DNA from: Candidatus Saccharimonadota bacterium
GTDB lineage: Bacteria > Patescibacteriota > Saccharimonadia > Saccharimonadales > Saccharimonadaceae
Direction: 5' to 3'
Assembly: GCA_017421685.1 (NCBI GenBank)
Contig: JAFOHW010000004.1
Coordinates: 1-28,100 of the forward strand
DNA: 28,100 nucleotides
The notes beneath the pieces were generated by a model. It searched no databases. It worked only from the letters and a program-made list of their open reading frames with translations, and was not told the origin of the DNA. The position numbers and the translations under genes were made by a program. Every line of letters begins with the position of its first letter. Within the stretch, counting starts at the first letter, position 1. Shown here piece by piece: positions 6,874 to 24,300 of this stretch.

Positions 6874-8013
6874 TTAAACATGGCGAACTTTTTTTCGCAC
6901 GGACTCTACTAACTTCGTCTTCTTGTACGCTAAAGGCTTTAAGATTAAATCATGCGCTGGAGTATATTTTAACTCTTCACATCCAAACGAACGTTTAAAT
7001 TCTGAAACCCCATAGAATCTATGCGAAGTTTCCTCTAGCCCAACAATCCCCCAAAGATTATATCGAAGGCAACCTCGCTTTCTAGCTTCTTTCATTGCCT
7101 CCATATGCAATAAAGGCGCAGCTGAATATCGAGTTCCGAGTTCTGACGAAACGCCATAATGATAGCTCGCTTCCGGACCATAAAAAATCATAAAATTCTG
7201 GGCCAAAGTTTCGCCATCTTTTTTAGCGGTGTAAATTAAAACCTCATCGTTTCCTCGAAACGCTTCAAATTGTTTTCGCAAAAACTCGCCAGAAAAAGCG
7301 ACATACTTTTGTCTCTCGGCGTGCAACTTCTCTAACCGACAAAATTCTTCTATCGCCTTGTCACTCGCCTCCGCCGTAATCTCGATCTCATTTTTCTCGG
7401 CTTTTCTCAATTTTCTTCTAAAACCTTGCGACGCCCCCGCTAAAATCTCTTCTTCGGACTTTTCTAAATTTAAAATTCCAGCATATTCTACCGATAAATA
7501 CATTGGTGCCCGTTTTAAGCCTTGCTCTTGCAGAATTTTCAAAATATTGTCCGACATTGGTTCTTGTGGTCTAACCCTGATAAAGACGCAGTCTTTCTCT
7601 CCACCTTGGGTCTTAATGTCGGAAAATATTGCCTGGACGACTTTACTATTCTTCCAATCCATGATTGGTCCTCCAGCAATCGCCAGATATGTTCCCCTTT
7701 TCGCAGTTTCAACAACTCCAGCGTACGCTCCGACGATCTTATTTTTATCGTCGACTAAAATCCTCCGAACAACCTCTTTCCCCCGGCTAATATGAAATTC
7801 GTAAAAATCCCACGATTGAAGAAAATTCGATTCAACGTGCGACTTAATAAATTCATCCCAAAGCTCGCGAGAAGAAGCATTATGTATAGAAAAACCAGAA
7901 ACAGCACAATTCGAGACTGTCCGCGACAACGGGAGTGGAGTTAGCGAGGAGCCCCGTAACGACGGGCGCGACGAAGCGTGTCGAGGATGTGCTGTTTTGG
8001 TTTTTCTTTTCAT
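6874..8013 (-). CDS. FemAB-like peptidyltransferase, copy 2, with in-frame palindromic insert
   Basis: 379 aa. FemAB/FemX enzymes use aminoacyl-tRNA to add residues to the peptide side chain of peptidoglycan precursors. Two GNAT-like halves are recognisable: NFLQSWDFYEFH, GGPIMDW, FIRVRPQEP in the first; FRRKLRKAEK, AAPLLHMEAMKEARKRG, YNLWGI and HRFYGVSEFKRSFG in the second. It is homologous to the gene immediately upstream, with which it shares these motifs and a 4-nt overlap. The start at 8013 is supported by AAGGAGG 5 nt before the ATG. Residues from about 3 to 41 (PRHASSRPSLRGSSLTPLPL and flanks) do not look like the family and are encoded by a palindromic repeat that also occurs in gatA. 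The fold should be intact since the insert precedes the first domain. Donor amino acid unknown. Confidence 0.85.
   Translation of the reverse strand: MKRKTKTAHPRHASSRPSLRGSSLTPLPLSRTVSNCAVSGFSIHNASSRELWDEFIKSHVESNFLQSWDFYEFHISRGKEVVRRILVDDKNKIVGAYAGVVETAKRGTYLAIAGGPIMDWKNSKVVQAIFSDIKTQGGEKDCVFIRVRPQEPMSDNILKILQEQGLKRAPMYLSVEYAGILNLEKSEEEILAGASQGFRRKLRKAEKNEIEITAEASDKAIEEFCRLEKLHAERQKYVAFSGEFLRKQFEAFRGNDEVLIYTAKKDGETLAQNFMIFYGPEASYHYGVSSELGTRYSAAPLLHMEAMKEARKRGCLRYNLWGIVGLEETSHRFYGVSEFKRSFGCEELKYTPAHDLILKPLAYKKTKLVESVRKKVRHV
7890..8005. repeat. GC-rich palindromic element, copy A (inside a FemAB-like gene)
   Basis: Outer arms at 7890-7908 and 7988-8005 are reverse complements apart from one indel (AAAAACCA..ACAGCACA against TGTGCTGT..TGGTTTTT). 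TCGA lies at the inner end of each arm (7911-7914, 7981-7984). The core from 7920 matches copy B in gatA: TCCGCGACAACGGGAG at the left, GAGCCCCGT and ACGACGGGCGCG at the right, with a few substitutions and one single-base indel between. The core has its own small hairpin (CCCGT-AACG-ACGGG). The element is much richer in G+C than its surroundings and keeps the reading frame. Confidence 0.9.
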
Positions 8014-9008
8014 AAATGCCTCCTTTTCTTCCTGGCTTTCTCGACAACTAAGTTCTTTAAATACCCGACTTTCGAGATAATTAAATCGTGTGCCGATACA
8101 TATTCAACGACTTCTCCCCCAAAACCAGTTTTAAAGGTTGTCACTCCGGCGTAACGATGATTTGGGTTTCCTTTTGGCGCAATTCCCCAAAGGTTAAACC
8201 TCTCGTGCCCTTCCTCCTTTAAATCCCGCATCGCTCTCCACAAAAGCGCATATGCCCCTGGTAATTTTCGGTTTAATAACGTCGAGGCGGCTTCGTAATA
8301 ATCTCCCTCATGTCCATCCCGAATAACTAGACCATAAGCGATTCTTTCCCCTTCCGAAGTTTCAGCAACATAAATATCAATCTCCCCCTTGAATGCCTCT
8401 CTTTCTGCTAGCAAGGTTTTAATGTCTGGCGGAATGAAGTTTTGTCGCTTCGCTGTCTCGACTTGAACCTGATGAAATTCCTTAAAAATCTCTTCTGAAT
8501 TATCTTTGAAGACTTTTATTCCTAATTTTCCTGCTCGCCTAACTTCGTAACGAGTCTGTCTCCGCATATTGGAAAGCAAAATTTCCTCATCTTTAGTCAA
8601 ATCAATCATTACAGTATGTTCGGCCGCCAAGTGCATCGGAGATTCTTTTAGTCCCAAACTTTCTAGTAATTCTGTATTCTTCGAAGTCGCCAGCAATTGG
8701 GGGCGAAGTCTTGCAAAAACGCATTTTTCCCGCTCTGCGACCTCAGAAATCTCATCCAGGGCTTTTTTTATGGCTTTTTTATCTCCCCAGTCAATTAATG
8801 GTCCACAAGGAATCTCTAAATATCTTCCCCGTTTTGCGTCTCTGATAATCATTAAGGCATGTCCTAGCCCCCCAAAATCACTCACGACCGTTTTTGCGCC
8901 CAAAATCTCGTTCATTTTCGCATACGCAGGCGATTGCAAAAAGTTCGCTTCCGGAAACCGCTCTATTATTTCGTTCCAATTAACTTTTGCCTCTTTATTC
9001 TCCGTCAT
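8010..9008 (-). CDS. FemAB-like peptidyltransferase, copy 1
   Basis: 332 aa from the ATG at 9008. AAGGAG lies 7 nt upstream; the codon at 9011 is a TTG and is less likely. Same family as the following gene: NFLQSPAYAKMNEILGAK, IPCGPLIDWGDKK, FARLRPQL, NMRRQTRYEVRRAGKLGI, GAYALLWRAMRDLKEEG, FNLWGIAP and HRYAGVTTFKTGFGGEVVEY. Length is near the usual 330-420 aa. Two tandem copies suggest sequential additions to the interpeptide bridge or two different acceptors (inference). It overlaps the DegT-like gene by 14 nt and the second FemAB-like gene by 4 nt. Confidence 0.88.
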   Translation of the reverse strand: MTENKEAKVNWNEIIERFPEANFLQSPAYAKMNEILGAKTVVSDFGGLGHALMIIRDAKRGRYLEIPCGPLIDWGDKKAIKKALDEISEVAEREKCVFARLRPQLLATSKNTELLESLGLKESPMHLAAEHTVMIDLTKDEEILLSNMRRQTRYEVRRAGKLGIKVFKDNSEEIFKEFHQVQVETAKRQNFIPPDIKTLLAEREAFKGEIDIYVAETSEGERIAYGLVIRDGHEGDYYEAASTLLNRKLPGAYALLWRAMRDLKEEGHERFNLWGIAPKGNPNHRYAGVTTFKTGFGGEVVEYVSAHDLIISKVGYLKNLVVEKARKKRRHL

Positions 9009-10125
9009 CAAGGTACTCCTTTATTATCTTTCGCGCTGGCGCCAATTCTTCTTTACTATAAAAAGTTGGTAGATTCACGATTTTTTCTGCTACTTCTACC
9101 GAAGTCGGGCAATCTTTTTCAGGAAAATGAACTTTTTTGTAATATCTTTCAGGTGAAACCGGCTTTTCGTACCAAAACCCATCAAGATAATAACCATTTT
9201 TCTTTAACTTCTTTAGAGCCTCATCTCTGTTATTAATGAGGTAAAATTCTCGGATTGGGGATTCTCCACTCTTTTTTAGGTTCTTCAATTGTTCTAAACC
9301 TAACTTAGCCTGAAATTTTGCAATTCTTCTCTCTAAATCTAATTTATTGTCTGCAGATTTTTCAACAAAGCGCAACTTTAGAAGGACACGCATAAAAATT
9401 CCGCCTAATCTAACCCTAGTTAACCCTCGGGTCATTGCTCCAAACAGTGGATAAAATCTAGCTCGAAGCGTATCAGAGAGTTTCGGCAGTTTCGTGGGCG
9501 CTTCAATTTTATTTTTACAGGGGTGACGCAAGATTGCTACTCCCCCGGAAATTGTATCTATTGATTTATCTTTCCCGAAAGACAACGCCGTCGCAACCCC
9601 TATTGTTCCAGCTTCTCTTCCGTCAGAGTATTTAACTCCTGCGCAATGCGCCAAATCCTCGACGATAAGAAGTCCATATTTTTTCGCAAATTTCTCAATC
9701 TCATTTATATCGACTGGGTTTCCTAAGGTGTTTTGGACTATAATCCCCTTAGGCGTAGCGGGTCGAGAGGTACCTGCACCAACACTATTTGTTAAAGCTT
9801 TTTTCAGTGTGTTGACAGAAAAATTTAAATCGCTCTTCTCTATATCTACGAAGATCGGGACTAATCCAGCACTTTTAATTGCTTCATAAACCGCATAACA
9901 GGTAAATCCATTAACCAAAATTCCATCGCCTCTATTAAAATAAGACTTTAAGGCCAACGCCAGGGCCGACCGACCATTTTTACATAAAACCGCCTCGCCT
10001 CCATATTTTTTCTCCAAAAACTCCTCTAGCTCTAAACAGTCTCGCTTTCTTCCAATCGAAAAAATATGTTTTAATCGTCTTTTTCTTGTATAATTTCCCG
10101 CTAACCCTAAAAAGTAATGTTTCAC
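8995..10125 (-). CDS. DegT/DnrJ/EryC1/StrS-like PLP aminotransferase
   Basis: 376 aa. PLP-dependent fold type I. The N-terminal part has YGGEAVLCKNGRSALALAL and GILVNGFTCYAV. EDLAHCAG carries the cofactor-binding Asp, and SFGKDKSIDTISGGVA places the probable Schiff-base Lys at 187. Most DegT enzymes make amino sugars, but some are remodelled. Its position between a hydrolase and two FemAB-like genes, overlapping by 4 and 14 nt, suggests an envelope role. The segment GAGTSRPATPKG (about residues 116-127) interrupts the strand before IIVQNTLGNPV and resembles a translated repeat. The substrate cannot be named. Confidence 0.82.
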   Translation of the reverse strand: MKHYFLGLAGNYTRKRRLKHIFSIGRKRDCLELEEFLEKKYGGEAVLCKNGRSALALALKSYFNRGDGILVNGFTCYAVYEAIKSAGLVPIFVDIEKSDLNFSVNTLKKALTNSVGAGTSRPATPKGIIVQNTLGNPVDINEIEKFAKKYGLLIVEDLAHCAGVKYSDGREAGTIGVATALSFGKDKSIDTISGGVAILRHPCKNKIEAPTKLPKLSDTLRARFYPLFGAMTRGLTRVRLGGIFMRVLLKLRFVEKSADNKLDLERRIAKFQAKLGLEQLKNLKKSGESPIREFYLINNRDEALKKLKKNGYYLDGFWYEKPVSPERYYKKVHFPEKDCPTSVEVAEKIVNLPTFYSKEELAPARKIIKEYLDDGE

Positions 10126-10802
10126 TTTTTCATCCTCTCGACCAACGTTATTAACGCTCTAGCCAATTCATCAGGGTTAGAGATATACGGCGCGTGTGTC
10201 CAATTTGCATAAAATTTCAGTTCTGCATTCGGTAATTTTTCATACATCACCGTAGCATGGCGCGGAGGAGTTGTTGTGTCTTTCTTCCCCCAAAGGATAA
10301 ATGTCTTTGTTTCAACCTTACTAAAATCTAATTTTTTGTCTGATTCTAGCATGTTCGTTAATGTCTTTTTCATATTTTCGGGCGCTTTCGAATAGTCAGT
10401 TGACCCAGTTATTCTATGGAAAATTTTGTCAATGAGAGAGATTTTCTTTAGTGGTTTTCCGAGTTTAGCCAATTTCTCAACAACTTTCTTTTTCGTAGAC
10501 GGCTCATAGACTCCGGCCGAATCGAGTAAAATCAGATATTTTAGTTTATCGGAATCCTCCGCGCATAGATTTAATAAAATTCTTCCACCGTTAGAATGGC
10601 CTAAAGCAATCGCCCCATCTGGAATCTCGCAGTCAGCCCACTTAACGTAATCCTCAATCGTATAGACTTTTTTCGATTCCTCCGTTAATCCGGGGACTTT
10701 TAACATTTTTACACTAAGTCCCTTATCACGAAGAATTCGTAAAGTCTCCTTCCATGGCTCAATCGTATAAGTCCACCCATGAATAATATAAAGATCAGCC
10801 AT
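10122..10802 (-). CDS. Alpha/beta hydrolase
   Basis: 226 aa from the ATG at 10802; a second ATG directly upstream (10805) is too close to the GGAGG. Alpha/beta hydrolase fold: oxyanion-loop segment IIHGW at the N-terminus, nucleophile elbow GHSNGG with Ser70, acid in WGKKDTTTPP, and His in WTHAPYISNPDE. A family with RBBP9/esterase-like and lipase-like members; the substrate is unknown. Its stop overlaps the DegT-like start by 4 nt, and the MurF-like gene ends 34 nt upstream, so it belongs to the envelope operon. Confidence 0.85.
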   Translation of the reverse strand: MADLYIIHGWTYTIEPWKETLRILRDKGLSVKMLKVPGLTEESKKVYTIEDYVKWADCEIPDGAIALGHSNGGRILLNLCAEDSDKLKYLILLDSAGVYEPSTKKKVVEKLAKLGKPLKKISLIDKIFHRITGSTDYSKAPENMKKTLTNMLESDKKLDFSKVETKTFILWGKKDTTTPPRHATVMYEKLPNAELKFYANWTHAPYISNPDELARALITLVERMKK

Positions 10803-10836
10803 CATTCCCTCCCTTCTGTCTTTATTTTATCAAAAA

Positions 10837-12108
10837 TCATGAATCTAGTCCCCAACTTTTTCGACGATTAACCGCGGCTTTCTCTCTTCGGCATAATAAC
10901 TTCGCGTCTTCCGGATTATCAAGTAGTTTTTCTATAATCCATTCAAGGTATTGACTCCCCTTAAAAACCAAGGTTTCATTTCCCTTTATATTTCTCTCGA
11001 TATATTCAAGCGCCTTCCTTGGATCAAGCGTCGCGACCGCTGAGACTCCTAATTTCTTCAGTTCTGGCGCCGTATATTTCTTTGTTCTTCTTCCGACCAA
11101 AACGACTTTTTCGGGTTTTACATCGGCAATCAGTTCCGCCAACTTTCTATGCTCTTCTCCCGTAATTGATCCCTGATCGACAATATCCCCAATGACTAAC
11201 CATTTATGTTCCGCATGCATTCGTTTCGTCATATCTAAAATCGAAGCGACCGAAATGATGTGTGCATTATAACTACTATCAATGATGTCGATCCCTTTCT
11301 TTCCCTTAAAATACGAGCTACGTCCCGGCGCCATCTTTATGTCCGAAAAGTCGGACTTAAACGGCAATTTTAAATATTTCATTAAATCCTGTAAAACCAA
11401 AAGGTTAAACGCTAAGTCTCTTGGTTCTGGATGGTTAAAATGGAAAGTTGTATCTCCATAAGTAAAATCGGTTGAATTAGGGTAAACAACGTATTTTTTT
11501 ACTTCAGTTTTCTTTATCGGAATGACTTTTGCCGAGATATCTTTTGTCGCGGTTTTCATCATTTTCGAATCGGCATCAATATAAACCAGCTTCGAAGTAT
11601 TTTGAGGCAAAGTCGCGAATTCCGCGGTAATCGCCTCGTCTAAATTCTTGAAACGCCCCTCCTCTACTTCTTTTTCGAACTGTACGGCATGTGATCGCCC
11701 AATCGATACCCAGATGGTAACTTCGGGTTTTAGCCATTTCGCCAAGAACTCTGCTTCATGGGGCCTCTCCCCATCGATCTCGACAACATAAAATTTCTCC
11801 TTATGACGATAAAATAGCGAACGAAAAGGGGCGGCAATCAATAGATAGAGCCAACGCAATTTCGACCCCCTTATCCCTTTAAGCCCTAGTAGATCAAAAG
11901 AAACCCCGAACGCAGAATTTGCGTCATGCGAATAATGGGCCTTTTTTCCCATTTCATGTTCCATAAGATGGAGCATCGTTGTTTTTCCTGCCGATCCAGT
12001 AATCGCAATTACTCTTGGATTCCATCTTCTAAGAGCCCTATCTGCAAAATGCCGAAAATACTTCGCGACGACGAAATAAAAGCGCTTTTTGAATTTAGCG
12101 ATACTCAT
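10837..12108 (-). CDS. MurF-like Mur ligase family protein without the N-terminal domain
   Basis: 423 aa from the ATG at 12108. Mur ligases join amino acids to UDP-MurNAc with ATP. The P-loop TGSAGKTT has Lys42. VVEIDGERPHEAEFLAKWLKP, SIGRSHAVQFE, MAPGRSSYF, IIDSSYNAH and VIGDIVDQGSITGEEH correspond to the MurF pattern. Only a short basic leader precedes the P-loop, so the UDP-substrate-binding N-terminal domain of true MurF is missing. The Lys that is carbamylated in MurF (in AKGEIF) has no counterpart in EAITAEFATLP. It could be a remodelled ligase acting on another substrate. The start at 12108 is chosen because TATAAT lies 6 nt before it; the longer frame to 12183 would begin upstream of that promoter. 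First gene of the 12108-6874 operon. Confidence 0.8.
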   Translation of the reverse strand: MSIAKFKKRFYFVVAKYFRHFADRALRRWNPRVIAITGSAGKTTMLHLMEHEMGKKAHYSHDANSAFGVSFDLLGLKGIRGSKLRWLYLLIAAPFRSLFYRHKEKFYVVEIDGERPHEAEFLAKWLKPEVTIWVSIGRSHAVQFEKEVEEGRFKNLDEAITAEFATLPQNTSKLVYIDADSKMMKTATKDISAKVIPIKKTEVKKYVVYPNSTDFTYGDTTFHFNHPEPRDLAFNLLVLQDLMKYLKLPFKSDFSDIKMAPGRSSYFKGKKGIDIIDSSYNAHIISVASILDMTKRMHAEHKWLVIGDIVDQGSITGEEHRKLAELIADVKPEKVVLVGRRTKKYTAPELKKLGVSAVATLDPRKALEYIERNIKGNETLVFKGSQYLEWIIEKLLDNPEDAKLLCRREKAAVNRRKSWGLDS

Positions 12109-12114
12109 GGAATC

Positions 12115-12123
12115 ATTATAGCA
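12115..12123 (-). promoter_or_regulatory. Leaderless promoter of the envelope operon
   Basis: TGC-TATAAT on the minus strand, then 6 nt (GATTCC), then the ATG at 12108. The expected transcript start falls on the ATG and no Shine-Dalgarno is present. No good -35. Confidence 0.7.
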
Positions 12124-12144
12124 TATAAAAATACAGAGATAATA

Positions 12145-12173
12145 TTGACTTTTTTGATAAAGTATGATATAAT
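12145..12173 (+). promoter_or_regulatory. Near-consensus plus-strand promoter without a gene
   Basis: TTGACT at 12145-12150, a 17-nt spacer ending in TGA, and TATAAT at 12168-12173. Transcription would start near 12180 and meet the hairpin at 12197-12226. No plus-strand gene lies before that hairpin. Confidence 0.7.
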
Positions 12174-12196
12174 TAAAAAACACAGATATAATCTTA

Positions 12197-12226
12197 AAAA
12201 AGACTATGCCAGCGCATAGTCTTTTT
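12197..12226. terminator. Intrinsic terminator of rpsJ, usable from both strands
   Basis: AAAAAGACTATG pairs over 12 bp with CATAGTCTTTTT around a 6-nt loop, with U-runs in both directions. It lies 17 nt past the rpsJ stop. Confidence 0.88.
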
Positions 12227-12242
12227 ATTGTTTTGACTGTTT

Positions 12243-12575
12243 TTACATCTTAATTTCTGCGTCGACTCCAGCCGGAAGCGAAAGATTCTGTAAGCTCTCA
12301 ATCGTTTTCGGGGTCGCATTAGAGATATCAATTAATCTCTTGTGAACTTTCATCTCGAACGATTCCCCACCAGTCTTATAGACGTGAGGAGATTTCACGA
12401 CCGTAAAAGTACTCTTTTTTGTCGGTAAAGGAATTGGACCACTAACGGTCGCTCCCGTTCGAATTGCCGTATCGACAATTTGCCTTGCGCTTTGATCGAT
12501 AACTCGATGATCGTAAGCCTTGAGGCGGATTCGGATTTTTAATCCCTCATCTTTTTTTGCCTTAGCGTCTGCCAT
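12243..12575 (-). CDS. rpsJ: 30S ribosomal protein S10
   Basis: 110 aa, slightly longer than the usual 102-105 because of a charged N-terminus ([12 protein letters not shown]). S10 motifs are clear: [40 protein letters not shown]...[12 protein letters not shown] and [13 protein letters not shown]. It assembles in the head of the small subunit and is also NusE. AAAGGA lies 5 nt before the ATG. A promoter (TTGACC-17-TATAGT) is upstream and a terminator immediately follows, so here rpsJ appears monocistronic instead of leading the S10 operon. The order fusA-tuf-rpsJ on the minus strand recalls the str operon. Confidence 0.96.
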
Positions 12576-12649
12576 TTTTTCCTTTCTTGTCTGATAACCT
12601 CCAAGACATGAGTTTTTCAGACTTGATAATTAGTTTTTAATGTATCTTA

Positions 12650-12678
12650 ACTATATCATAGAATTATTCATGGGTCAA
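12650..12678 (-). promoter_or_regulatory. rpsJ promoter
   Basis: TTGACC, 17 nt ending in TGA, then TATAGT on the minus strand. The leader is about 67 nt and contains GTCTGA and TCAGAC, which can pair around a loop that includes a GGAGG. Confidence 0.65.
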
Positions 12679-12729
12679 GCTACTAAGATTCTACGTCCTA
12701 TTACGAAATGGGGATTCATCCATAATTCG

Positions 12730-12738
12730 TGCTATAAT
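12730..12738 (+). promoter_or_regulatory. Leaderless promoter of the E2-like gene
   Basis: TGC-TATAAT followed by 6 nt and the ATG at 12745. No Shine-Dalgarno. The arrangement is nearly the same as for the MurF-like gene. Confidence 0.7.
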
Positions 12739-12744
12739 AAAACT

Positions 12745-13614
12745 ATGAAAAAATATGGAGGAGCGCATAGGGTCAAAAACGTAACTGGTATGGCCCAAAT
12801 TAGCATAGATTTAAAGCCAAATCGAAGCGTCAGCGACGTCTTTATTAATCAAGAAATGGATTTGACTAATCTATGTAAATATATCGAAAAAAAGAAAGAA
12901 TCTGGCGAAGAGATAACTTATTTCCATGCTTTTCTGGCGGCCATTGGAAAAACTATCTATAACCGTCCGAAATTAAATTATTTTGTCGCAAATCGTCATA
13001 TCTGGGAGCATGATAAGGTTGTACTTTCGTTTGTCGCGAAAGTCAGCTTCGATGATCATTCCGAAGAGATGATGGTTATGATTCCGATCGAAAAGAATGA
13101 TACAATTTTTACAATCGGAGAAAAAGTTCGGAAAAAAGTCAGTGGTTTTCGTAAAAAACGATCTAATGGCGTTGATAAGAAAGGCGCAAATTCTGCCATA
13201 GATATCCTTGGGAAAATGCCGAATCTTTTACGTGTACCTGTGGTTGGGATTTTAAAATGGACCGATAAAAAAGGCTTACTTCCAGCTTCCCTTGCTGAGG
13301 ATAACCTTTATTATAGCTCTATGATTGTATCTAACCTTGGTTCAATTGGCTGTGGCGCCATTTTCCATAATATTACGGATTTCGGTAATTCTTCTTCTCT
13401 GCTTACAATGGGCGAGATTAAGGACGAAGAAATTATAATCGACGGAAAGAAAAAGATTCGCAAAATTTGTGAATGGGGCATGAATTTCGATGAACGTATT
13501 GCCGACGGTTATTATTTCGCAAAATCTGCCGACTTACTTCAATACATCCTAGATAACCCTGAAGAACTTGAAAAACCTGCCTCTGGAAAAATTATCCTTG
13601 AAGAAATTAGATAG
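12745..13614 (+). CDS. E2-like acyltransferase fold protein (CAT superfamily)
   Basis: 289 aa from the ATG at 12745, chosen because TATAAT lies 6 nt before it; the longer frame from 12640 begins upstream of the promoter. It resembles the catalytic domain of 2-oxoacid dehydrogenase E2 and chloramphenicol acetyltransferase: ITYFHAFLAAIGKTIYNRP, FVAKVSFDD, YYSSMIVSNLGSIGCGAIFH and DERIADGYYFAKSADLLQYIL. There is no lipoyl or peripheral-subunit domain and no E1/E3 gene nearby. The catalytic motif HRxxDG appears as ERIADG (residues 250-255), so the general-base His is replaced by Glu. My recollection is that this is normal for this stand-alone family. The role is unknown. It sits in the opposite orientation between tuf and rpsJ. 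Confidence 0.8.
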   Translation: MKKYGGAHRVKNVTGMAQISIDLKPNRSVSDVFINQEMDLTNLCKYIEKKKESGEEITYFHAFLAAIGKTIYNRPKLNYFVANRHIWEHDKVVLSFVAKVSFDDHSEEMMVMIPIEKNDTIFTIGEKVRKKVSGFRKKRSNGVDKKGANSAIDILGKMPNLLRVPVVGILKWTDKKGLLPASLAEDNLYYSSMIVSNLGSIGCGAIFHNITDFGNSSSLLTMGEIKDEEIIIDGKKKIRKICEWGMNFDERIADGYYFAKSADLLQYILDNPEELEKPASGKIILEEIR

Positions 13615-13767
13615 TTTTTATCATAAACTTTTTTCGCTCATCTGAGGTGAAAAAATGAAAAAATAATTTGATGGAAGCCTTCCGGTATTTCAGTACCGGT
13701 TCTCCATCACTATTTTTTCATTTTTTCAGCCTTTTTATGATTCGCTTAAAAAAGTTTATAATAAAAA
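13615..13767. repeat. Nested palindrome of about 153 nt between convergent genes
   Basis: Four nested stems are visible. 13615-13634 pairs with 13748-13767 (19 of 20 bases complementary). 13649-13665 pairs perfectly over 17 bp with 13711-13727. TGATGGA (13669-13675) pairs with TCCATCA (13703-13709). CCGGTA (13682-13687) pairs with TACCGG (13694-13699) around TTTCAG. It starts directly after the stop of the E2-like gene and abuts the tuf terminator. It contains no open frame of note. It may act as a terminator for the plus-strand gene, but is far larger than one needs to be. Confidence 0.9.
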
Positions 13768-13796
13768 ATAGCTCCTTTTTAGGGGAGCTATTTTTT
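13763..13796. terminator. Intrinsic terminator of tuf (bidirectional)
   Basis: AAAAAATAGCTCC (13763-13775) pairs with GGAGCTATTTTTT (13784-13796) around an 8-nt loop. It lies 10 nt past the tuf stop. Confidence 0.9.
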
Positions 13797-13805
13797 TAAG
13801 GCATA

Positions 13806-14990
13806 TTACTTGATGACCTTGGTGATAACCCCAGAACCAACGGTTTTACCACCTTCACGAATAGCGAAGCGGTCGTTATCGTTCATAGCAACAGGAGCCA
13901 AGAGTTTAACCTTGAAGGTTACTTGGTCACCAGGCATGACGATTTCCTTATCAGCCGGGAGCTCAACCTCGCCAGTTACATCCGTAGTTCGGAAGTAGAA
14001 CTGAGGCTTGTAACCCTTAGAGAACGGAGTATGGCGTCCGCCTTCCTCTTTCTTCAAGATGTAAACCTGCGCCTCAAATTCAGTATGAGGGGTAATCGAA
14101 CCAGGAGCAGCGATAACCTGTCCACGCTCAATCTGATCTCGCTCAATACCACGAAGAAGAAGTCCAGCATTATCGCCAGCCTGTCCCTGATCTAGGGTTT
14201 TATGGAAAGCTTCAATACCGGTAACAACCGATTTCTGAGTTTCTTTAAGACCAACGATTTCAACTTCGTCATTTAATTTAACGATACCCTGCTCAATACG
14301 ACCAGTAGCAACAGTACCACGACCTTTGATCGAGAAAACGTCCTCAATTGGCATCAAGAATGGTTTGTCAAGATCGTGTTCTGGAACATCGAAGTATTCG
14401 TCCATAGCTTTAACAAGCTCCATGACTGCATCTTCGTTCTCTTTGTCTCCTTCAAGAGCTTTAGTCGCAGAACCCTTAATAATAGGAGCGTTGTCTCCAT
14501 CGAAACCGTACTTATTAAGAAGGTCTCGGACATCCATCTCAACTAATTCAACGAGTTCAGGATCAGCGAGGTCCATCTTGTTGAGGAAGACGATGATTTT
14601 AGGTACGTTTACCTGGTGAGCAAGAAGTACGTGCTCACGAGTCTGTGGTAATGGACCATCATTCGCAGCGACCACGAGGATAGCACCGTCAACCTGAGCA
14701 GCACCGGTAATCATGTTTTTAATGTAGTCGGCGTGACCAGGCATATCAACGTGCGCATAGTGACGCTTCTCGGATTCATACTCCTGATGAGAAGTCGCGA
14801 TAGTAATACCACGAGCTTTTTCCTCAGGCGCATTATCGATTTGATCATAGGCAACTGGTTTATTAACGTCCGAAGGAAGTCTCTTCGAGAGTACGCTAGT
14901 AATCGCAGCAGTTAAAGTAGTTTTACCATGGTCGACGTGACCCATGGTGCCAACATTAATATGTGGCTTGGAACGGTCAAAATTTGCCAT
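13806..14990 (-). CDS. tuf: Elongation factor Tu
   Basis: 394 aa from the ATG at 14990 (AGGAG 5 nt upstream); an in-frame upstream ATG at 15044 lies inside the leader hairpin and is rejected. GTPase that delivers aminoacyl-tRNA to the ribosome. G1 GHVDHGKT (17-24), RGITI, G3 DMPGHADY (usually DCPGHADY), G4 NKMD and G5 SATKAL are intact, followed by domains 2 and 3 of normal length. It has its own promoter and terminator, with an unusually stable leader hairpin. In a str operon it would follow fusA directly; here fusA lies 3.7 kb upstream with two plus-strand genes between. Confidence 0.98.
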
Positions 14991-15015
14991 TCTTTCTCCT
15001 TTTATATTATTAATG

Positions 15016-15045
15016 TTTGGAGCGCTAATAAAAACCAGCTCCAAA
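15016..15045 (-). promoter_or_regulatory. Hairpin in the tuf leader
   Basis: TTTGGAGC and GCTCCAAA form an 8-bp stem around a 14-nt loop, 25 nt before the tuf ATG and right after the predicted transcript start. It may stabilise the mRNA 5' end; there is no U-run, so it is not a terminator. Confidence 0.6.
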
Positions 15046-15058
15046 ACTCTACTTTACT

Positions 15059-15087
15059 ATTTTAGACTATTTTAAGCTTTTTGTAAA
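15059..15087 (-). promoter_or_regulatory. tuf promoter
   Basis: TTTACA, 17 nt, TAAAAT on the minus strand, with the transcript start expected near 15052. It is divergent from the adhesin promoter at 15125. Confidence 0.7.
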
Positions 15088-15124
15088 GATATTTTTGGGG
15101 ATAAAAATCTTTTTAAAAAAAGTC

Positions 15125-15153
15125 TTGACATTTAAAACGTTTATGTATATTAT
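15125..15153 (+). promoter_or_regulatory. Promoter of the VaFE adhesin
   Basis: TTGACA at 15125-15130, 17 nt, TATTAT at 15148-15153 (or TATATT two bases earlier). The leader of about 43 nt ends in AAAGGA before the ATG. Confidence 0.7.
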
Positions 15154-15202
15154 AGGATTATAAAAGGTCATAACACAAAAATTAAAAATAAAAGGAATTG
15201 CT

Positions 15203-17875: not shown

Positions 17876-17892
17876 AAAAGCTATCTAAAACT

Positions 17893-17920
17893 ATAGGACG
17901 TACCAGGAGGTACGTCCTAT
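17893..17920 (+). terminator. Intrinsic terminator of the adhesin gene
   Basis: A perfect 12-bp stem (ATAGGACGTACC / GGTACGTCCTAT) with an AGGA loop, followed by TTTTGTCTT, 18 nt after the stop. Confidence 0.9.
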
Positions 17921-17929
17921 TTTGTCTTA

Positions 17930-17958
17930 TTGACTATGCATAAGAAGTGTGGTATAAT
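17930..17958 (+). promoter_or_regulatory. Promoter of the orphan 188-aa gene
   Basis: TTGACT at 17930-17935, 17 nt ending in TGTGG, TATAAT at 17953-17958. A 10-bp palindrome TACATATGTA (17962-17971) covers the expected start site and could be an operator. Confidence 0.75.
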
Positions 17959-18016
17959 ATATACATATGTACCTTAATATCAGAAACGGAGAAAAAACAG
18001 AGAATAGGGGGAAGTC

Positions 18017-18583
18017 ATGTCTCGTCTGGACAATTGGTTTATCTGTACGGACAGCCACTTCGTTTGTGCAGGGCATCGGGATGACAACAATAAATTCTGG
18101 ATCCCACTAGAGATAAAGGACGCCTTCCCTCGTCGCTCCGGCGAAGAGGCGAAGCCCACAAAGGAAGAGCTGATGTACTGGTGGAACGATGAGTTTTACG
18201 ACGCATCTCCACTTGAACAGAACAGCTTTTTCTGCGGGAAGGTCTATAACGACCCTCGTCCTGAATACTTCGATGGAGGGTTCGTAGATGGAACCTCTAC
18301 CGTCCTTGAGTTCAAACGTAACCAGTATACTGGTTACCACATCCAAACTCGGAACACGAAATACGAACTTGGATACATGAACTCGAATTACCGTGACCTT
18401 CTTGGCTACATTGCCGAGGGGGTCATCTCAATGGAGGCGGTCGAAGAGACCTTTGGGCTGTTTCGTCGCATGAACGACCCACGTCTTCCGAGATACGTTC
18501 TCCAGATGCTTTTGGGGGAGCAAACCTTCGACGAAGGCAGGGTCAGGTCCTACTTCGCGAACCGTCGGCTCCTGAAGTTCTAG
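18017..18583 (+). CDS. Unknown protein, orphan GC-rich gene
   Basis: 188 aa; no family recognised. GGGGGA precedes the ATG by a few bases. The protein is rich in aromatic and charged residues (WFICTDSHFV, FWIPLEI, MYWWNDEFYD, YFDGGFVDG) with a helical C-terminal half (GYIAEGVISMEAVEETFGLF). It has no signal peptide or membrane segment, so it is probably cytoplasmic. The base composition differs from its neighbours: 37 of 60 bases are G or C at 18121-18180, while most of the window is AT-rich. It has its own promoter and terminator, like a self-contained cassette. A 47-codon frame starting at 17967 in another frame overlaps its 5' end and could be a leader, but is more likely chance. Confidence 0.75.
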   Translation: MSRLDNWFICTDSHFVCAGHRDDNNKFWIPLEIKDAFPRRSGEEAKPTKEELMYWWNDEFYDASPLEQNSFFCGKVYNDPRPEYFDGGFVDGTSTVLEFKRNQYTGYHIQTRNTKYELGYMNSNYRDLLGYIAEGVISMEAVEETFGLFRRMNDPRLPRYVLQMLLGEQTFDEGRVRSYFANRRLLKF

Positions 18584-18606
18584 GAGAGGCTCAGTTTCTG
18601 TAAACC

Positions 18607-18626
18607 GGGACCGCTTTGGCGGTCCC
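18607..18626 (+). terminator. Terminator of the orphan gene
   Basis: GGGACCGC and GCGGTCCC form an 8-bp GC-rich stem with a TTTG loop; the following tract is TTGTCATTT, a modest U-run. Confidence 0.75.
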
Positions 18627-18642
18627 TTGTCATTTCTAATCA

Positions 18643-18678
18643 AAAAAATAAGCAAGGATTTTTCCCTGCTTATTTTTT
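18643..18678. terminator. Bidirectional terminator between the orphan gene and fusA
   Basis: AAAAAATAAGCA (18643-18654) pairs with TGCTTATTTTTT (18667-18678), 13 nt past the fusA stop. It has T-runs in both directions. Confidence 0.88.
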
Positions 18679-18691
18679 AATTCACGGAAGC

Positions 18692-20791
18692 CTATTTCGA
18701 ATTTCGCTTCTCAATAATCTCCTGTGCAACATTTGGCGGAACTTCTTCGTAAGCAAAGAGCTCCATGCTGGAAGCGGCTCGCCCTTGGGTCATGCCACGT
18801 AAGTCTCCGGTATACCCAAAGAGGTTCGCTAGCGGACAGAAAGCCTTAATTAGTTTAGCGCCACCATTCAAATCTTCCATTTCATCAACGCGACCACGTC
18901 GAGAGTTTATATCCCCAATTACGTCACCCATGAATTCTTCCGGAGTCGTAATCTCTAGTTTCATGATAGGCTCAAGAAGAACCGGGTTAGCTTTCTTAAT
19001 ACCTTCTCTAGTAGCCAAAGAACCAGCCAAGGTAAAGGCGAGCTCAGACGAGTCTACATCGTGATACGAACCGTCATACAAAGTAGCCTTAATATCTACT
19101 ACCGGATAGCCAGCGATAACACCACCAGCAAGAGTATCTTCGACACCCTTCTGTACCGGCTTACGATATTCTTGTGGAACGACGCCACCCTTAATCATAT
19201 CGATAAACTCAAAGCCCTTCCCTGCTTCATTCGGCTCAAACTTAATCCAGACATCACCATATTGACCACGACCACCAGACTGTTTAACATGTTTACCTTG
19301 GGCTTCGGCAGTTCCACGAATTGTCTCGCGATATGCGACTTGCGGAGCACCAGTATTTGCCTCTACGTTATGTTCTCTTTTTAGACGATCGATAATAATC
19401 TCGAGATGTAGCTCGCCCATTCCAGAGATGATTGTTTGTCCAGTTTCTTCATCGGTATGAACTCGGAAAGTCGGATCTTCTTCTGCCATCTTCGAAAGAC
19501 CAATACCCATCTTCTCTTGGTCGGCCTTAGTTTTTGGCTCAACCGCAATCGATACTGGAGGATCTGGGAATTCAATCGACTCAAGTAAAATCGGACTCGA
19601 TGGACTACAAAGTGTCGTGCCGGTCGTACAGTTCTTTAGTCCAACTACAGCCGCGATGTCCCCTGCCCCAATTTCGGAAATTTCATTCCTATCATTTGCA
19701 TGCATTCGAACTAGGCGCCCGATTCTCTCTTTATCTCCGGTCGAAGCATTAAGAACTGTGTCGCCAGACTTTAATTTACCGGCATAAACACGGATAAAAA
19801 TTAATTTACCGACAAACGGGTCAGTCGCAATTTTGAACGCTAATGCCGTCAATGGTTCAGAATTTTCAGCTTTTCTAACAATCTTATCTCCAGTCTTCGG
19901 ATCCGTACCAACGGTTTGACCTTGGTCTCGGTCTAACGGGCTAGGCAGATAATCAGTCATAAGGTCAAGCACCTTCTCAACGATAACTCCGCGACCGTCT
20001 CCCCCGGTAACTAGGAAGAAATCACCATCTAGGACACGCTTCCTTAGAGCAGACTTTAGCTCGTCGACTGTAATCGCTTCTTCACCTTCGCTAAAGTATT
20101 TATCCATTAGAGCCTCGTCGGCCTGAACCGCTTCCTCTACCAACATTGAGCGCGCGTTCTTTGCCTTTTCGAGCATATCTTCTGGAATCTCGCCAACGGT
20201 CAACTCGCGGTCAGCATAATCTTTATAAGTATAAGCCTTCATATCGATTAAATCGACAACTCCACAAATATCCTTTTCAAATCCAATCGGAAGATGGATT
20301 GCTACGGCATTTTTCGATAAGCGTTTATGAATCGAATCAAGCGATTTATAGAAGTCGCCACCAATCTGGTTAATTTTGTTTACGAAGCAAATGCGTGGAA
20401 CTCCATATTTTGTCGCTTGGCGCCAAACTGTCTCAGATTGCGCTTCTACACCCATTTTCCCGTCGAAAACCACAACCGCGCCATCAAGAACACGGAGCGA
20501 ACGCTCGACCTCAGCCGTGAAGTCAATGTGTCCCGGTGTATCAATAATGTTAATCTGATGATCCTTCCAGTAAACAGTAACTGCCGCCGAAGTAATTGTA
20601 ATACCTCGCTCCTTCTCCTGTTCCATCCAGTCAGTATCAGCGCCCCCAGTTCCGCCTTTAACCAAATCAATCTTATGTTTTAATCCGGTACGATAAAGAA
20701 TCGCCTCCGAAATCGTCGTTTTTCCTGCGTCAATATGGGCAATAATCCCAATATTGCGTAGATTATGTAAATCCTTAACTGCAGGAGCCAT
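18692..20791 (-). CDS. fusA: Elongation factor G with altered G4 and G5 motifs
   Basis: 699 aa, normal EF-G length. Translocase GTPase acting on the ribosome. G1 [17 protein letters not shown] and G3 DTPGHIDF are standard. G4 is N138-K-I-N141 instead of NKxD, and the G5 region, normally GSAFKNKG, reads TGGDGRG from residue 262. These two motifs contact the guanine base. Domains 2-5 are present ([79 protein letters not shown]). The altered codons are clear in the DNA (AAC AAA ATT AAC). AAGGAG is only 3 nt from the ATG, within a small hairpin. Probably the functional EF-G of the cell, since tuf and rpsJ accompany it. Confidence 0.96.
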
Positions 20792-20798
20792 ATGCTCC
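20784..20798 (-). promoter_or_regulatory. Hairpin enclosing the fusA ribosome binding site and start codon
   Basis: In the mRNA GGAGC-ATATG-GCTCC forms a 5-bp stem. The Shine-Dalgarno is in the stem and the ATG is in the loop. This could limit initiation or mark it for regulation. Confidence 0.5.
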
Positions 20799-20906
20799 TT
20801 ATCTTTATTATTTATTTCTCATTTAGAGTTCCACACTCAAAAAGAGATGAATCTACCCCATTCTAGCACATTTTTTCCTAAAAGAAAAGACTAAAACGCT
20901 TTAAAA

Positions 20907-20935
20907 TTGACAAAATAGACAAAGTGTGATATAAT
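20907..20935 (+). promoter_or_regulatory. Consensus plus-strand promoter antisense to gatB
   Basis: TTGACA, 17 nt ending in TGTGA, TATAAT: a full match to the sigma-70-type consensus with an extended -10. No plus-strand gene follows; the start site near 20942 is 6 nt from a hairpin. Confidence 0.75.
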
Positions 20936-20947
20936 AAGAATATATCC

Positions 20948-20968
20948 CTGGCTTAGGCCAGCTTTTTT
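20948..20968 (+). terminator. Short hairpin with T-run overlapping the gatB stop codon
   Basis: CTGGC-TTAG-GCCAG followed by CTTTTTT. On the plus strand it has terminator form. The loop contains the complement of the gatB TAA. On the minus strand there is no U-run after the stem, so gatB is not obviously terminated by it. Confidence 0.55.
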
Positions 20969-22377
20969 CTTAAGATGTCTTGAACTGCTGAAGGGTTTGC
21001 TTTTCCCTTAGATTCTTTCATAACTTGTCCAACCAAAAAACCAATCACCTTCTCTTCACCAGCCCGAAAATCATCTTGTGCCTTTTTCGTTTCGGGTTTT
21101 GCTAAAACTATATCTACAATTTCTTCTAGAGCCCCCAAATCGTTTTCCTGAATCAGCCCCAGTTCTTTCGCAATATTCTTCGCCCCTCGTCCCTTCATTT
21201 GCGGATCGAACAGCCGTAAGAAAACTTCCTTTGTCGCCGTTGAACTAAGCTCCTTCTTTTCATTCATTTCAGACAGTTCAATCAAATCTTTTGCGCTCGG
21301 TAAATCATTTAAGTATTCTACCGATTTTTCTTCCGCTAAAAGAACCGAAACGAACAAATTCGAAATCGCAGTCAGTTGAGACTCTTTTCCTGACTGGCTC
21401 AGTTCTTCAATTTTTCTCATTAGCTCTGGATAATCCAGCAAAATTTCGATAATATCTTCTCGGATGATTTTTTTGAATTTTTTACGGTAATCCGATGGCA
21501 TCAAAGGTAGCTTAGAGGCCTCCTCCTCAATGAATTCAGAGCTTAAATTAATTGGCGGGAGATCTGGTTCCGGCATATAACGATAATCTTTTGCTTCTTC
21601 CTTCGAGCGTTGTCCAGTTGTCTTTCCAGCCCCATCATCCCAGCCTCGAGTCTCCTGAACGACTTTTTCACCAGCATCTAGTAATTTACTTTGTCGTTTA
21701 ATTTCATATTCCACGGCTCTTTCTACCGCTTTGAAAGAGTTAAGGTTTTTTACTTCCGCTCTCGTCCCGAGCTCTTTAGCTCCCTCTGGCGCAATTGAAA
21801 CATTGATATCGAAGCGCATATTCCCGTTATACAAATCACCGTAAGTTACTCCCGCATGACACATCAATCTCCATAATTCCTTACAATAATCATGTGCGTC
21901 CTTCGAAGAATGAATATCCGGCATCGAAACAATCTCGATTAACGGCGTATCGACTCGGTTTAAATCCACTAACGAATATGTATCAAAATGCGTTAACTTT
22001 CCTGCGTCCCCCTCTAGATGCGCGTGTTCAATTCTGATTTTTACCCCCGAAGGAAGCTCGACGTATCCAGGTCCAATAATCGGCTGATAGAACTGAGTAA
22101 TCTGGAAACCCTTCGGCGAATCTGGATAGAAGTAATGTTTCCGGTCAAAACGCGAAACAGGATTGATTTCGCAATTCATAGCTCGCCCGGCTAGAATCGC
22201 TAGTCTTATCGCCTCACCATTTAACCTCGGTAGCATCCCCGGTAAAGCATAACACACCGGCGAAACGCACGAATTTGGTTCTTTCCCGCGCGCATCGTTA
22301 TCAACCTCGGAGAACAACTTCGTTTTGGTTTTTAATTGTACATGACATTCAATACCGATAGTTGGGATATATTTCAT
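20953..22377 (-). CDS. gatB: Asp-tRNA(Asn)/Glu-tRNA(Gln) amidotransferase subunit B
   Basis: 474 aa, normal length. GatB phosphorylates the mischarged Glu- or Asp-tRNA and receives ammonia from GatA. The start is typical (YIPTIGIECHVQLKTKTKLF, usual GLEVHVQL), followed by SPVCYALPGMLPRLN, KHYFYPDSPKGFQITQF, EGDAGKLTH, DLNRVDTPLIEIVS, YNGNMRFDINVS, EVKNLNSF, YRYMPEPDLPP, and the C-terminal YqeY-like tail domain (FLVGQVMKESKGKANP). Its ATG overlaps the stop of the HEPN-like gene by one base (TAATG). Presence of GatCAB implies indirect Gln-tRNA and/or Asn-tRNA synthesis. Confidence 0.97.
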   Translation of the reverse strand: MKYIPTIGIECHVQLKTKTKLFSEVDNDARGKEPNSCVSPVCYALPGMLPRLNGEAIRLAILAGRAMNCEINPVSRFDRKHYFYPDSPKGFQITQFYQPIIGPGYVELPSGVKIRIEHAHLEGDAGKLTHFDTYSLVDLNRVDTPLIEIVSMPDIHSSKDAHDYCKELWRLMCHAGVTYGDLYNGNMRFDINVSIAPEGAKELGTRAEVKNLNSFKAVERAVEYEIKRQSKLLDAGEKVVQETRGWDDGAGKTTGQRSKEEAKDYRYMPEPDLPPINLSSEFIEEEASKLPLMPSDYRKKFKKIIREDIIEILLDYPELMRKIEELSQSGKESQLTAISNLFVSVLLAEEKSVEYLNDLPSAKDLIELSEMNEKKELSSTATKEVFLRLFDPQMKGRGAKNIAKELGLIQENDLGALEEIVDIVLAKPETKKAQDDFRAGEEKVIGFLVGQVMKESKGKANPSAVQDILRKKLA

Positions 22378-22796
22378 TAGATTGCTCCTAGGTCTTTTAA
22401 GGCTTGTTTATAAACTTCTAGAGCATTGGAAGCTTGTTTATACGAAATCTCAAATCCAGATTCATGTGCAATCGCATTTCGAAGCTTATGCGCGCGCCAA
22501 ACTGAATTTAGATGTGTAAATTTATCGCCAGAACGCTTAAGCCTATCGCCCATCGTTTTCCCTGGTACTCCCATCTCAATCAAAGCCTTATCAAGGAGTT
22601 TATCCCCCTCGATAATCGTGGTTACATAGCTCGCAGGGTTTTCCTGTTTTAGGCGATTCTCAATCGACAAAAACTTAGCCTGATAATTTTCCTTATTAAA
22701 ATGATATTGTCGCTTCCCGGTTAACAAAATTGCGACGAAAACAAAAACCGCAATAATTAAAATAGCGAGCACAAAAGTTACTACACCACCATCCAT
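22377..22796 (-). CDS. Membrane-anchored HEPN-like protein in the gat operon
   Basis: 139 aa. GGGAGG lies 8 nt before the ATG. One N-terminal membrane segment (about 5-26) is followed by a helical cytoplasmic domain. Residues 106-111 are RNAIAH, a match to the Rx4-6H motif of HEPN domains, in the typical setting of helix-LRNAIAHE-helix (SYKQASNALEVYKQALKDL). HEPN proteins include RNases and non-catalytic tRNA- or nucleotide-binding members. It lies between gatA (25 nt gap) and gatB (1-nt overlap), so it is surely co-expressed with the amidotransferase. No partner nucleotidyltransferase (MNT) is adjacent, so a toxin-antitoxin pair is not supported. The function is unknown. Confidence 0.8.
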   Translation of the reverse strand: MDGGVVTFVLAILIIAVFVFVAILLTGKRQYHFNKENYQAKFLSIENRLKQENPASYVTTIIEGDKLLDKALIEMGVPGKTMGDRLKRSGDKFTHLNSVWRAHKLRNAIAHESGFEISYKQASNALEVYKQALKDLGAI

Positions 22797-22821
22797 AAAC
22801 TACAACCTCCCCATCTTATTA

Positions 22822-24300
22822 TTATTCATCTCTTAACTCCTTAGAAAACTCAATCAAACGTTTATCGCTTCGCCTCGGCCCGACAATCTGAAGCCCAATT
22901 GGTAGCCCATCTTTAGTTTTTCCGACCGGAATAGTTAATCCAGGCACTCCCGCTAAATTCAGCGACACTGACATAACATCTTCTAGGTACATTGCGACAG
23001 GGTCATTAACTTTCTCACCTAGTTTAAAGGCTGGACTCGGAGAAACCGGCGAAAGAATAAAATCACAATCCGAAAACGCTTTAGCATATTCTTCTACGAT
23101 CAATGTTCTTGCTTTTGCCGCTTTTAAGAAATAAGCATCATAAAACCCGCTCGATAATACGAAGTTTCCAATCATAATTCGACGTTTATTCTCGGGCATA
23201 AAGCCCTCACTTCGAGTATTTTCGTATAACTTATCTAAATTGCTAGAATCTTTCGAACGCAGACCATAACGAACTCCGTCATACCTCGATAGATTACTTG
23301 CAACCTCCGCTGGCACGATAATATAGTAAACAGAAAGCGCATATTTTAAGCTCGGCATATCCAATTCAATAATCTCATGACCCCTTGATTTCAGGAATTC
23401 AATTTTTGATTTAAGCGCGTCCCGAATCTCCGCATTAACAGAGGTATTATCGAAATCTTTAATGACGCCGACTCGAGCGCGGAAATCAGATGATTCTCGA
23501 CCATCCGCGACAACGGGAGCGGAATGAGTGCCGGAGCCCCGTGACGACGGGCGCGCAGGCACGAGTCGAGAATCATCTGATCCCGTGTCTGTATCAGCAT
23601 TATAATAATCCGGCAAAGTCGTCATGTCTTTCGGATCTCGTCCCGCCGTAATCGACATCAATAAATCCATATCTTCAGGCGTCTTCGTAAAAAACCCGAC
23701 ACAATCAGTCGACGAAGCCATTGCGACAACCCCATATCTCGAGATACAACCATAAGTCGGTTTAAGACCATAAACCCCATTGAATGAAGCTGGCTGACGA
23801 ATCGAGCCTCCAGTATCTGTACCAGTCGCAAACTCAACTATATCAAGCGCAACCGCAACCGCCGAACCTCCTGACGATCCTCCAGCAACACGTTCCTTAT
23901 CAAATGCGTTCAAAGTCGGCCCGAAATATGAATTTTCAGTTGAAGAACCATGTGCGAAAGCGTCCATATTCGTTCGCCCGATCATAATTGCCCCTTCGTC
24001 CTCGAGTTTTTTCACCGCTGTCGCCGTAATTGGCGAGGTGAACCCTTCTAGGATATGCGCCGAAGCTGTCGATTCCCCTTCCAGGCTCAAGAAATTATCT
24101 TTAAGCGCATACGGAACTCCTGCTAGGCGCCCAACTTCTTCTCCTCGCTTTATTTTTTCATCAATCTCGCGCGCTTTCTTTAATGCACCTTCCTCATTCA
24201 AAAAAGTAAATATATTATAATCGCTAAAATGCTTCGCCTTCTCAAGCGCATCTCTTACCAATCTCTCTGCTGAAACCTTTTTATTCGCAATTTTCATCAT
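22822..24300 (-). CDS. gatA: Asp-tRNA(Asn)/Glu-tRNA(Gln) amidotransferase subunit A with in-frame palindromic insert
   Basis: 492 aa. The amidase releases ammonia from glutamine for the GatB reaction. The amidase signature is complete: GVPYALKDNF with Lys67, AGGSSGGSAVAVA and GTDTGGSIRQPASFNGVYGLKPTYG with the cis-Ser and nucleophile Ser. The C-terminal part (PVSPSPAFKLGEK, LNLAGVPGLTIPVG, GLPIGLQIVGP) is normal. Residues about 240-272 (including LVPARPSSRGSGTHSAPVV) do not belong to the family and are encoded by a GC-rich palindromic element. It sits in the surface region before RARVGVIKDF, so function is probably kept. The ATG overlaps the gatC stop by 4 nt. Confidence 0.96.
   Translation of the reverse strand: MMKIANKKVSAERLVRDALEKAKHFSDYNIFTFLNEEGALKKAREIDEKIKRGEEVGRLAGVPYALKDNFLSLEGESTASAHILEGFTSPITATAVKKLEDEGAIMIGRTNMDAFAHGSSTENSYFGPTLNAFDKERVAGGSSGGSAVAVALDIVEFATGTDTGGSIRQPASFNGVYGLKPTYGCISRYGVVAMASSTDCVGFFTKTPEDMDLLMSITAGRDPKDMTTLPDYYNADTDTGSDDSRLVPARPSSRGSGTHSAPVVADGRESSDFRARVGVIKDFDNTSVNAEIRDALKSKIEFLKSRGHEIIELDMPSLKYALSVYYIIVPAEVASNLSRYDGVRYGLRSKDSSNLDKLYENTRSEGFMPENKRRIMIGNFVLSSGFYDAYFLKAAKARTLIVEEYAKAFSDCDFILSPVSPSPAFKLGEKVNDPVAMYLEDVMSVSLNLAGVPGLTIPVGKTKDGLPIGLQIVGPRRSDKRLIEFSKELRDE
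23485..23581. repeat. GC-rich palindromic element, copy B (inside gatA)
   Basis: Perfect 16-bp inverted arms, ATCAGATGATTCTCGA (23485-23500) and its complement (23566-23581). The core from 23504 matches copy A: TCCGCGACAACGGGAG, GAGCCCCGT and ACGACGGGCGCG. The distance between arm starts is 81 nt, exactly 27 codons. The core hairpin is CCCGT-GACG-ACGGG. Arms share only the inner TCGA with copy A. Confidence 0.93.

Follow-up and report, generated by a model that had tools for sequence, protein, structure and literature searches.

Two copies of a palindromic element lie in a 28,100-nucleotide stretch of a Saccharibacteria genome (assembly GCA_017421685.1, contig JAFOHW010000004.1, positions 1 to 28,100; hereafter the window), one within a FemAB-like gene and the other within gatA. 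They belong to a multi-copy family of hairpin-forming elements, and are not chance similarities. The core of the element is some 65–90 nt long and folds into a pair of hairpins, with a short conserved stem closing them. The outer stem around it, mostly 15–30 bp, is no fixed terminal repeat; it varies from copy to copy, being perfect or nearly so in some. The interpretation that we favour, with confidence only slightly above even, is that these are small mobile palindromic elements of Saccharibacteria with stems reshaped by template switching. A near-constant core within an ever-differing stem suggests that DNA may be inserted or reshaped here in an unusual manner.

Copies in the window and in related genomes

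A first-pass annotation had placed two GC-rich, nearly identical copies at 7920–7984 and 23504–23569, both in the plus orientation. These positions and orientations were recovered, and the copies contain 66% and 71% GC, compared to 41.5% for the window. Near identity holds for the hairpin tips CCGCGACAACGGGAG and CCCCGTNACGACGGGCGCG, which are exact, but not for the copies overall, which are 78% identical over 81 nt. With up to three mismatches allowed, the tip CCCCGTNACGACGGGCGCG matched the window twice, and gave no match in 100 shuffles. Each copy is enclosed by a gene-specific long inverted repeat that lies outside the borders originally drawn. This site-specific outer stem, the two-hairpin core, the division into subfamilies and recurrent insertion at the same protein loops are all additions to the first-pass description.

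Copy 1 occupies 7890–8005 as a whole hairpin (plus strand), directly past the start codon of the FemAB-like gene (6874–8013, minus strand; Pfam PF02388, FemAB, 7e-35). Its site-specific left outer arm (7890–7908) pairs with the right outer arm (7988–8005), and between them folding gives hairpin A at 7920–7939 and hairpin B at 7944–7977, with the tip CCCCGTAACGACGGGCGCG at 7952–7970 also found by the tip pattern. The fold has an energy of −50 kcal/mol, and a covariance model of one subfamily (R1) matched the copy with an E value of 3.1e-9 (G000:C36:7896-7999). The hairpin includes neither the sequence AAGGAGG nor the ATG at 8013 of the FemAB-like gene, which puts the insert in the reading path. 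Copy 2 (23485–23581, plus strand) lies within gatA (22822–24300, minus strand; Pfam PF01425, Amidase, 1.2e-131). It is bounded by perfectly paired 17-bp arms, ATCAGATGATTCTCGAC at 23485–23501 and GTCGAGAATCATCTGAT at 23565–23581, separated by a spacer of 63 nt. Hairpin A was folded at 23502–23526 and hairpin B at 23528–23562, the latter with the tip CCCCGTGACGACGGGCGCG at 23537–23555 in agreement with the tip pattern; the covariance-model match extends over 23481–23584 (E 2.4e-13). Folding z-scores on the plus strand were −5.5 for copy 1 and −6.8 for copy 2, and none of 200 shuffles folded equally well. As the first-pass annotation had stated, the reading frame stays open through both copies.

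The core recurs elsewhere in the same genome, where BLAST at a threshold of E≤10 found six further places, of which four had E values below 1e-4, and the covariance model found eight places in all. Related genomes carry it too. The pattern CCCCGTNACGACGGGCGCG, with up to two mismatches, was present in 41 of 199 genomes of the family, at as many as 20 places per genome, while a reversed control pattern gave a single match in each of seven genomes; by eye, some of the single matches to the true pattern also resemble chance. Within the window's genus, R1 matched 160 of 174 genomes at E≤0.001, many of them with at least 22 candidates. An even sample of the phylum gave matches in eight of 379 genomes, a lower bound because R1 represents one subfamily only. 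Four of the eight belong to the window's genus, three to one other genus of the same family, and one (G584) to another family. Two loci of G584 were folded: L352 has the same architecture with arms of approximately 20 bp, and the middle of L345 is without it. In a scan of a named collection, 65 of the 80 loci among the matches listed were from Saccharibacteria, and many of these 65 came from the gut of goat, sheep, cattle, buffalo or roe deer. As regards possible carriage by phages, four stretches in IMG/VR matched the tip pattern.

A set of copies was assembled from stretches of eight genomes. Tip matches with up to three substitutions numbered 88, and 85 distinct copies were left after removal of one locus that was present twice and two copies sharing the same 60 nt with another. 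They are distributed as 23 in G142, 18 in G062, 14 in G177, seven each in G089 and G006, six each in G150 and G000, and four in G165; the set lacks one place of G089 and part of the places in G165 and G006. Compensated changes were seen at 14 of 30 stem pairs of the core in one subfamily. That all of this reflects chance, or conserved protein loops with no mobile repeat behind them, is an explanation to which we attach next to no probability, as the pattern is missing from shuffles, repeats throughout the genus and has relatives with empty sites.

Several further palindromic families exist in the same genomes, at loci L110, L131, L136, L138, L123, L127, L115 and L111; their cores are different (such as GAAGACTTGGCC, GTACCGGACAGTACCGG and TTTTTACAAC) and their arms long and perfect. 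At L153:1255-1324, G165 has a core-free inverted repeat, perfect over 29 bp, whose loop is 12 nt long. In the window, a nested palindrome lies between two genes at 13600–13785, with perfect 18-bp inner arms (13648/13728), imperfect outer arms and a fold of −64.7 kcal/mol; by eye it resembles another palindromic family of the relatives. The first open reading frame of the window (1–831) ends in RCLVR, which we take to recall the variable proteins of diversity-generating retroelements.

Site-specific arms around a conserved core

To compare arms between the 85 copies, each flank was matched with the reverse complement of the opposite flank. The median score was 17 for a copy's own pair and 7 for pairs made with other copies, and in 71 of the 85 copies the two arms were reciprocally each other's best partners. 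Copies 24 and 25 of G142 have cores identical at 72 of 72 bases and unrelated arms. In G177, seven copies outside long open reading frames have cores that are 88–98% identical, and seven different arms of 28–31 bp. Approximately five inner arm bases are common to these seven; four of the arm pairs are perfect, three have one to three mismatches, and the pairing ends abruptly. Shared-arm sets aside, no convincing third copy of an arm was found elsewhere in the sampled parts of the genome.

Stem pairing can extend into flanking host DNA. Seven arm-sharing copies from several genomes, one of four such sets, have 4, 5, 4, 4, 3, 3 and 6 complementary base pairs past the last common pair. The pair that follows is C-G in four of the seven copies, and counting it as common would shorten each run by one. 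Among 5040 permutations of the flanks, the sum of these runs was reached only by the true pairing. Two of the seven occupy the same site of the same gene in two species. There, outward pairing amounts to a run of 6 in L124 (10/19) and to 18/19 in L243, and the sides of both encode similar protein (NYRILAVVK...LIGLI and GYRTLAVVR...LLGLI). The difference between L124 and L243 would represent a palindrome growing into host sequence in place, a direction of change that we infer.

Mismatched arm pairs bear on the level at which the stems are maintained. Selection on a transcript would favour G·U pairs. Among the arm mismatches, 112 were G·T and 113 were A·C, or 80 versus 87 when the coding strand was considered. 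The absence of a G·T bias therefore points to template switching at the DNA level, and RNA selection on the arms was rejected.

Occupied sites, empty sites and translation

Open frames of at least 190 codons contain 62 of the 85 copies, and all 62 frames are uninterrupted. The flanks of the other 23 copies never matched one and the same protein, and none of the 23 was observed to split a protein; six of them lack a homologue on one or both sides, and at least three more gave their own locus as best match. None of the 44 sense copies uses the frame in which the usual tip would contain TAA or TGA. The other two sense frames (phases 0 and 2) account for 22 copies each, and the antisense phases for 18 in total. 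Copies were assigned to genes by their open frames, and the phase test alone is therefore circular; it counts only together with the flank check on the 23 remaining copies. With several frames and both directions in use, it is the DNA and not the peptide that is conserved; from the two window copies, conservation of the DNA or RNA sequence had been proposed.

The genic copies are very probably translated, judging by their frames. Since they are in frame and without stops, each host protein would carry an extra loop of approximately 30–40 residues. From their motifs, we take the host proteins to include IleS/ValS-type and LeuS-type synthetases, GatA, GatB, Obg, TsaD, MnmA, an RlmD-like protein and PolA. 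In G177, a PrmC-like gene (L145) and an Obg-like gene (L149) have the element and its arms in common, with some protein similarity further out. An Obg-like gene of G142 has two copies of one unit (L134:6169 and 6964, reverse strand).

The first-pass annotation had suggested aligning GatA and FemAB homologues, and relatives without the insert were found for both. The homologues compared were the matches nearest to the insert-bearing query, rather than a census. Thirty GatA loci, picked by score from 59 genomes with a match, comprised 14 with a long, insert-bearing linker and 16 with a short linker. The GatA inserts are of several kinds: this family, this family reversed (L052, L056 and L057), and other cores, one of which is common to L048 and L054. 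In solved GatA structures the insert stretch lies between two aligned blocks; an AlphaFold prediction for GatA was of poor quality (mean pLDDT 42.9) and was set aside. Among the best 120 FemAB homologues listed, of 2467 found, 98 are 345 residues or shorter and 18 are 361 residues or longer, the window protein having 379. One homologue (P0021) carries the element reversed at the same place.

Four database GatA proteins that are otherwise 99% identical to that of the window lack exactly 29 residues, corresponding to the core and one arm, and retain the second arm (ESSD). By alignment the missing segment is residues 240–268, or 87 bp at 23497–23583 on the minus strand, with coordinates taken from the open reading frame. 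As the insert is also present in the sister species P0126 and P0127, the difference is more likely to be a loss.

Insert lengths were compared with empty relatives at 34 genic sites. All of these relatives are other species, and several sites rest on a single relative. The median excess was 93–120 nt at 25 of the sites; at 23 of the 34 it came closer to the length of the core with one arm, at 10 to that of the whole hairpin, and one site was a tie. When the boundaries of the conserved unit were applied to the insert lengths the result was mixed, and we therefore make no claim that one arm is always native. Among the RlmD-like proteins, P0255 and P0262 differ by an internal loss within the core, whereas the difference between P0257 and P0281 is a further insertion in the tip of hairpin B (protein level).

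Origin of the stems and relation to known systems

In the pathway that we propose, the long hairpin would provoke template switching by DNA polymerase at the site. One arm may thereby be copied onto the other, so that the stem is corrected, and lengthened with host sequence. The core between the arms may flip, and slippage may delete the core together with one arm. The reversed copies at the same site in FemAB and GatA fit the spacer inversion described in PMC8604942, but could be independent insertions in reverse. A more specific version, which we put forward only tentatively and consider unlikely as it stands, is that the two-hairpin core moves and that self-templated (snap-back) DNA synthesis remakes its terminal inverted repeats wherever it lands. 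Such remade repeats would be the inverted counterpart of a target-site duplication, and the element would need no fixed ends.

Several observations weigh against mobility with stems reshaped at the site. Four sets of copies have the same arms at different places, so that arms sometimes travel with the core. The 87-bp polymorphism in GatA is probably a precise loss. At some sites empty relatives are shorter by the length of both arms and the core together: 111 nt (median of 19 relatives) against 113 nt for copy 49 in a synthetase gene of G089, where insert-free relatives have a linker of approximately five residues; 117 of 122 nt for the MnmA-like copy 36; and, compared with other species, medians of 117 nt against a 116-nt hairpin for window copy 1 and 98 nt against a 97-nt hairpin for window copy 2. 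Arms can therefore be new to a site, and are not all one flank and its copy. Finally, no mobilising enzyme was found in searches for Y1, IS110 and RVT_1, other families not having been searched.

Y1 transposase was rejected as mobiliser, being present in none of 17 sampled genomes of the genus and in 38 of 199 genomes of the family (by hand count, 7 of 41 that bear the pattern and 31 of 158 others). The DEDD transposase of IS110 was also rejected, since only 3 of 170 genus genomes have it. Reverse transcriptase (RVT_1) occurs in 59 of the 199 family genomes. A hand count found it in 13 of 23 genomes with at least three pattern matches versus 46 of 176 others, a weak association, and it is absent from the window's own genome and from G150.

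The main competitor of reshaping by template switching, unlikely in our estimate at roughly one chance in four, is that the element targets palindromes or hairpin loops that are already there, such as terminators, short palindromic sites or the loops of other elements, and enters at their middle, so that the arms are the stem of the target. At two intergenic sites (L120 and L118) the empty relative does have a terminator-like hairpin. The seven arm-sharing copies lie between short complementary flanks, for example GAA/TTC and AAA/TTT, and extra insertions are found at the tip of hairpin B at L049 as well as in P0257 and P0281. Suitable targets are scarce, however: only one element-free perfect inverted repeat of at least 15 bp with a loop shorter than 10 nt was found in 110 kb of G177, the genome in which seven copies have arms of 28–31 bp. 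The empty genic orthologues inspected had no palindrome of this kind that caught our attention, although no count was made.

A conventional miniature inverted-repeat transposable element (MITE), with fixed terminal repeats, a transposase acting in trans and arms that diverged later, appears improbable. Its size and palindromy would fit, as would the four sets with shared arms and the several sites, including both in the window, where the whole hairpin is extra. It would not account for unrelated arms around identical or nearly identical cores. In reading flanks we noticed no target-site duplication, though no formal count was made, and the distributions of Y1 and IS110, the transposases searched for, also argue against it.

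We regard as very improbable that the structure is kept for a function in RNA, such as regulation, or splicing or ribosome bypass of the insert. The compensated changes in the core are in its favour; to the eye, the conservation of the tips and the GA-rich internal loops are reminiscent of RNA, and at the two intergenic sites mentioned the copy stands at the position of a relative's terminator-like hairpin. Against it, the arms show no excess of G·T over A·C, and Rfam gave no match in the window and none at E≤5 for copy 1. Genic copies are in frame and without stops, which bypass or splicing would make unnecessary; these two were rejected because the genic copies are open.

If reshaping of mobile elements by template switching is correct, protein-coding palindromes, known as a Rickettsia oddity, would also be common throughout a streamlined bacterial phylum, where they would sit in conserved genes such as those for tRNA synthetases, GatA, GatB, Obg and TsaD. 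They would account for the odd loops of 30–40 residues in Saccharibacteria proteins, and, for coding DNA, would document template switching as it occurs in nature. The combination of a conserved core with a site-specific stem makes both the movement of small elements and the upkeep of perfect long stems testable. No description of such elements in Saccharibacteria was found among the open-licence papers listed.

The closest parallel is with the Rickettsia palindromic elements (RPE), as the first-pass annotation had proposed. RPE are palindromic, approximately 150 bp long and divided into ten families, and many lie in frame inside unrelated genes, to which they add residues (PMC10969869); some genes have been struck more than once (PMC3733652). 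The Saccharibacteria element is likewise a dispersed palindromic repeat, of approximately 100–150 bp and with many copies, lying in frame in unrelated genes. RPE reportedly encode a conserved peptide (PMC10969869), whereas the core described here is read in several frames and both directions, has two hairpins and a site-specific outer stem, and comes from another phylum. Because the conserved-peptide feature is lacking, and with RPE compared by their description only, we class the element as RPE-like in effect, and not as RPE proper.

Repetitive extragenic palindromic (REP) sequences and bacterial interspersed mosaic elements (BIME), with their REP-associated tyrosine transposases (RAYT), are multi-copy hairpins of which some lie in genes, including tRNA synthetase genes (PMC3733652). 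The Saccharibacteria element differs from these in its longer stems, its non-conserved arms and the lack of Y1 in the sampled genomes of the genus. It differs from MITEs in that the arms of most copies, the four sets excepted, have no counterpart in other copies. In nematomorph mitochondria, perfect inverted repeats occur within translated genes (PMC6649704). There both arms encode conserved native sequence, and the portion of that source considered mentions no dispersed common core. Template switching among inverted repeats is known to make arms alike and to flip the spacer, including within coding DNA (PMC8604942), and can both create and repair hairpin stems (PMC8794818). The arms described here resemble its products in being homogenised symmetrically with respect to strand, as seen in the mismatch counts and in L243 compared to L124. 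Template switching is a mutation process, however, and in the parts of those papers considered it is not tied to a dispersed core such as the one found here.

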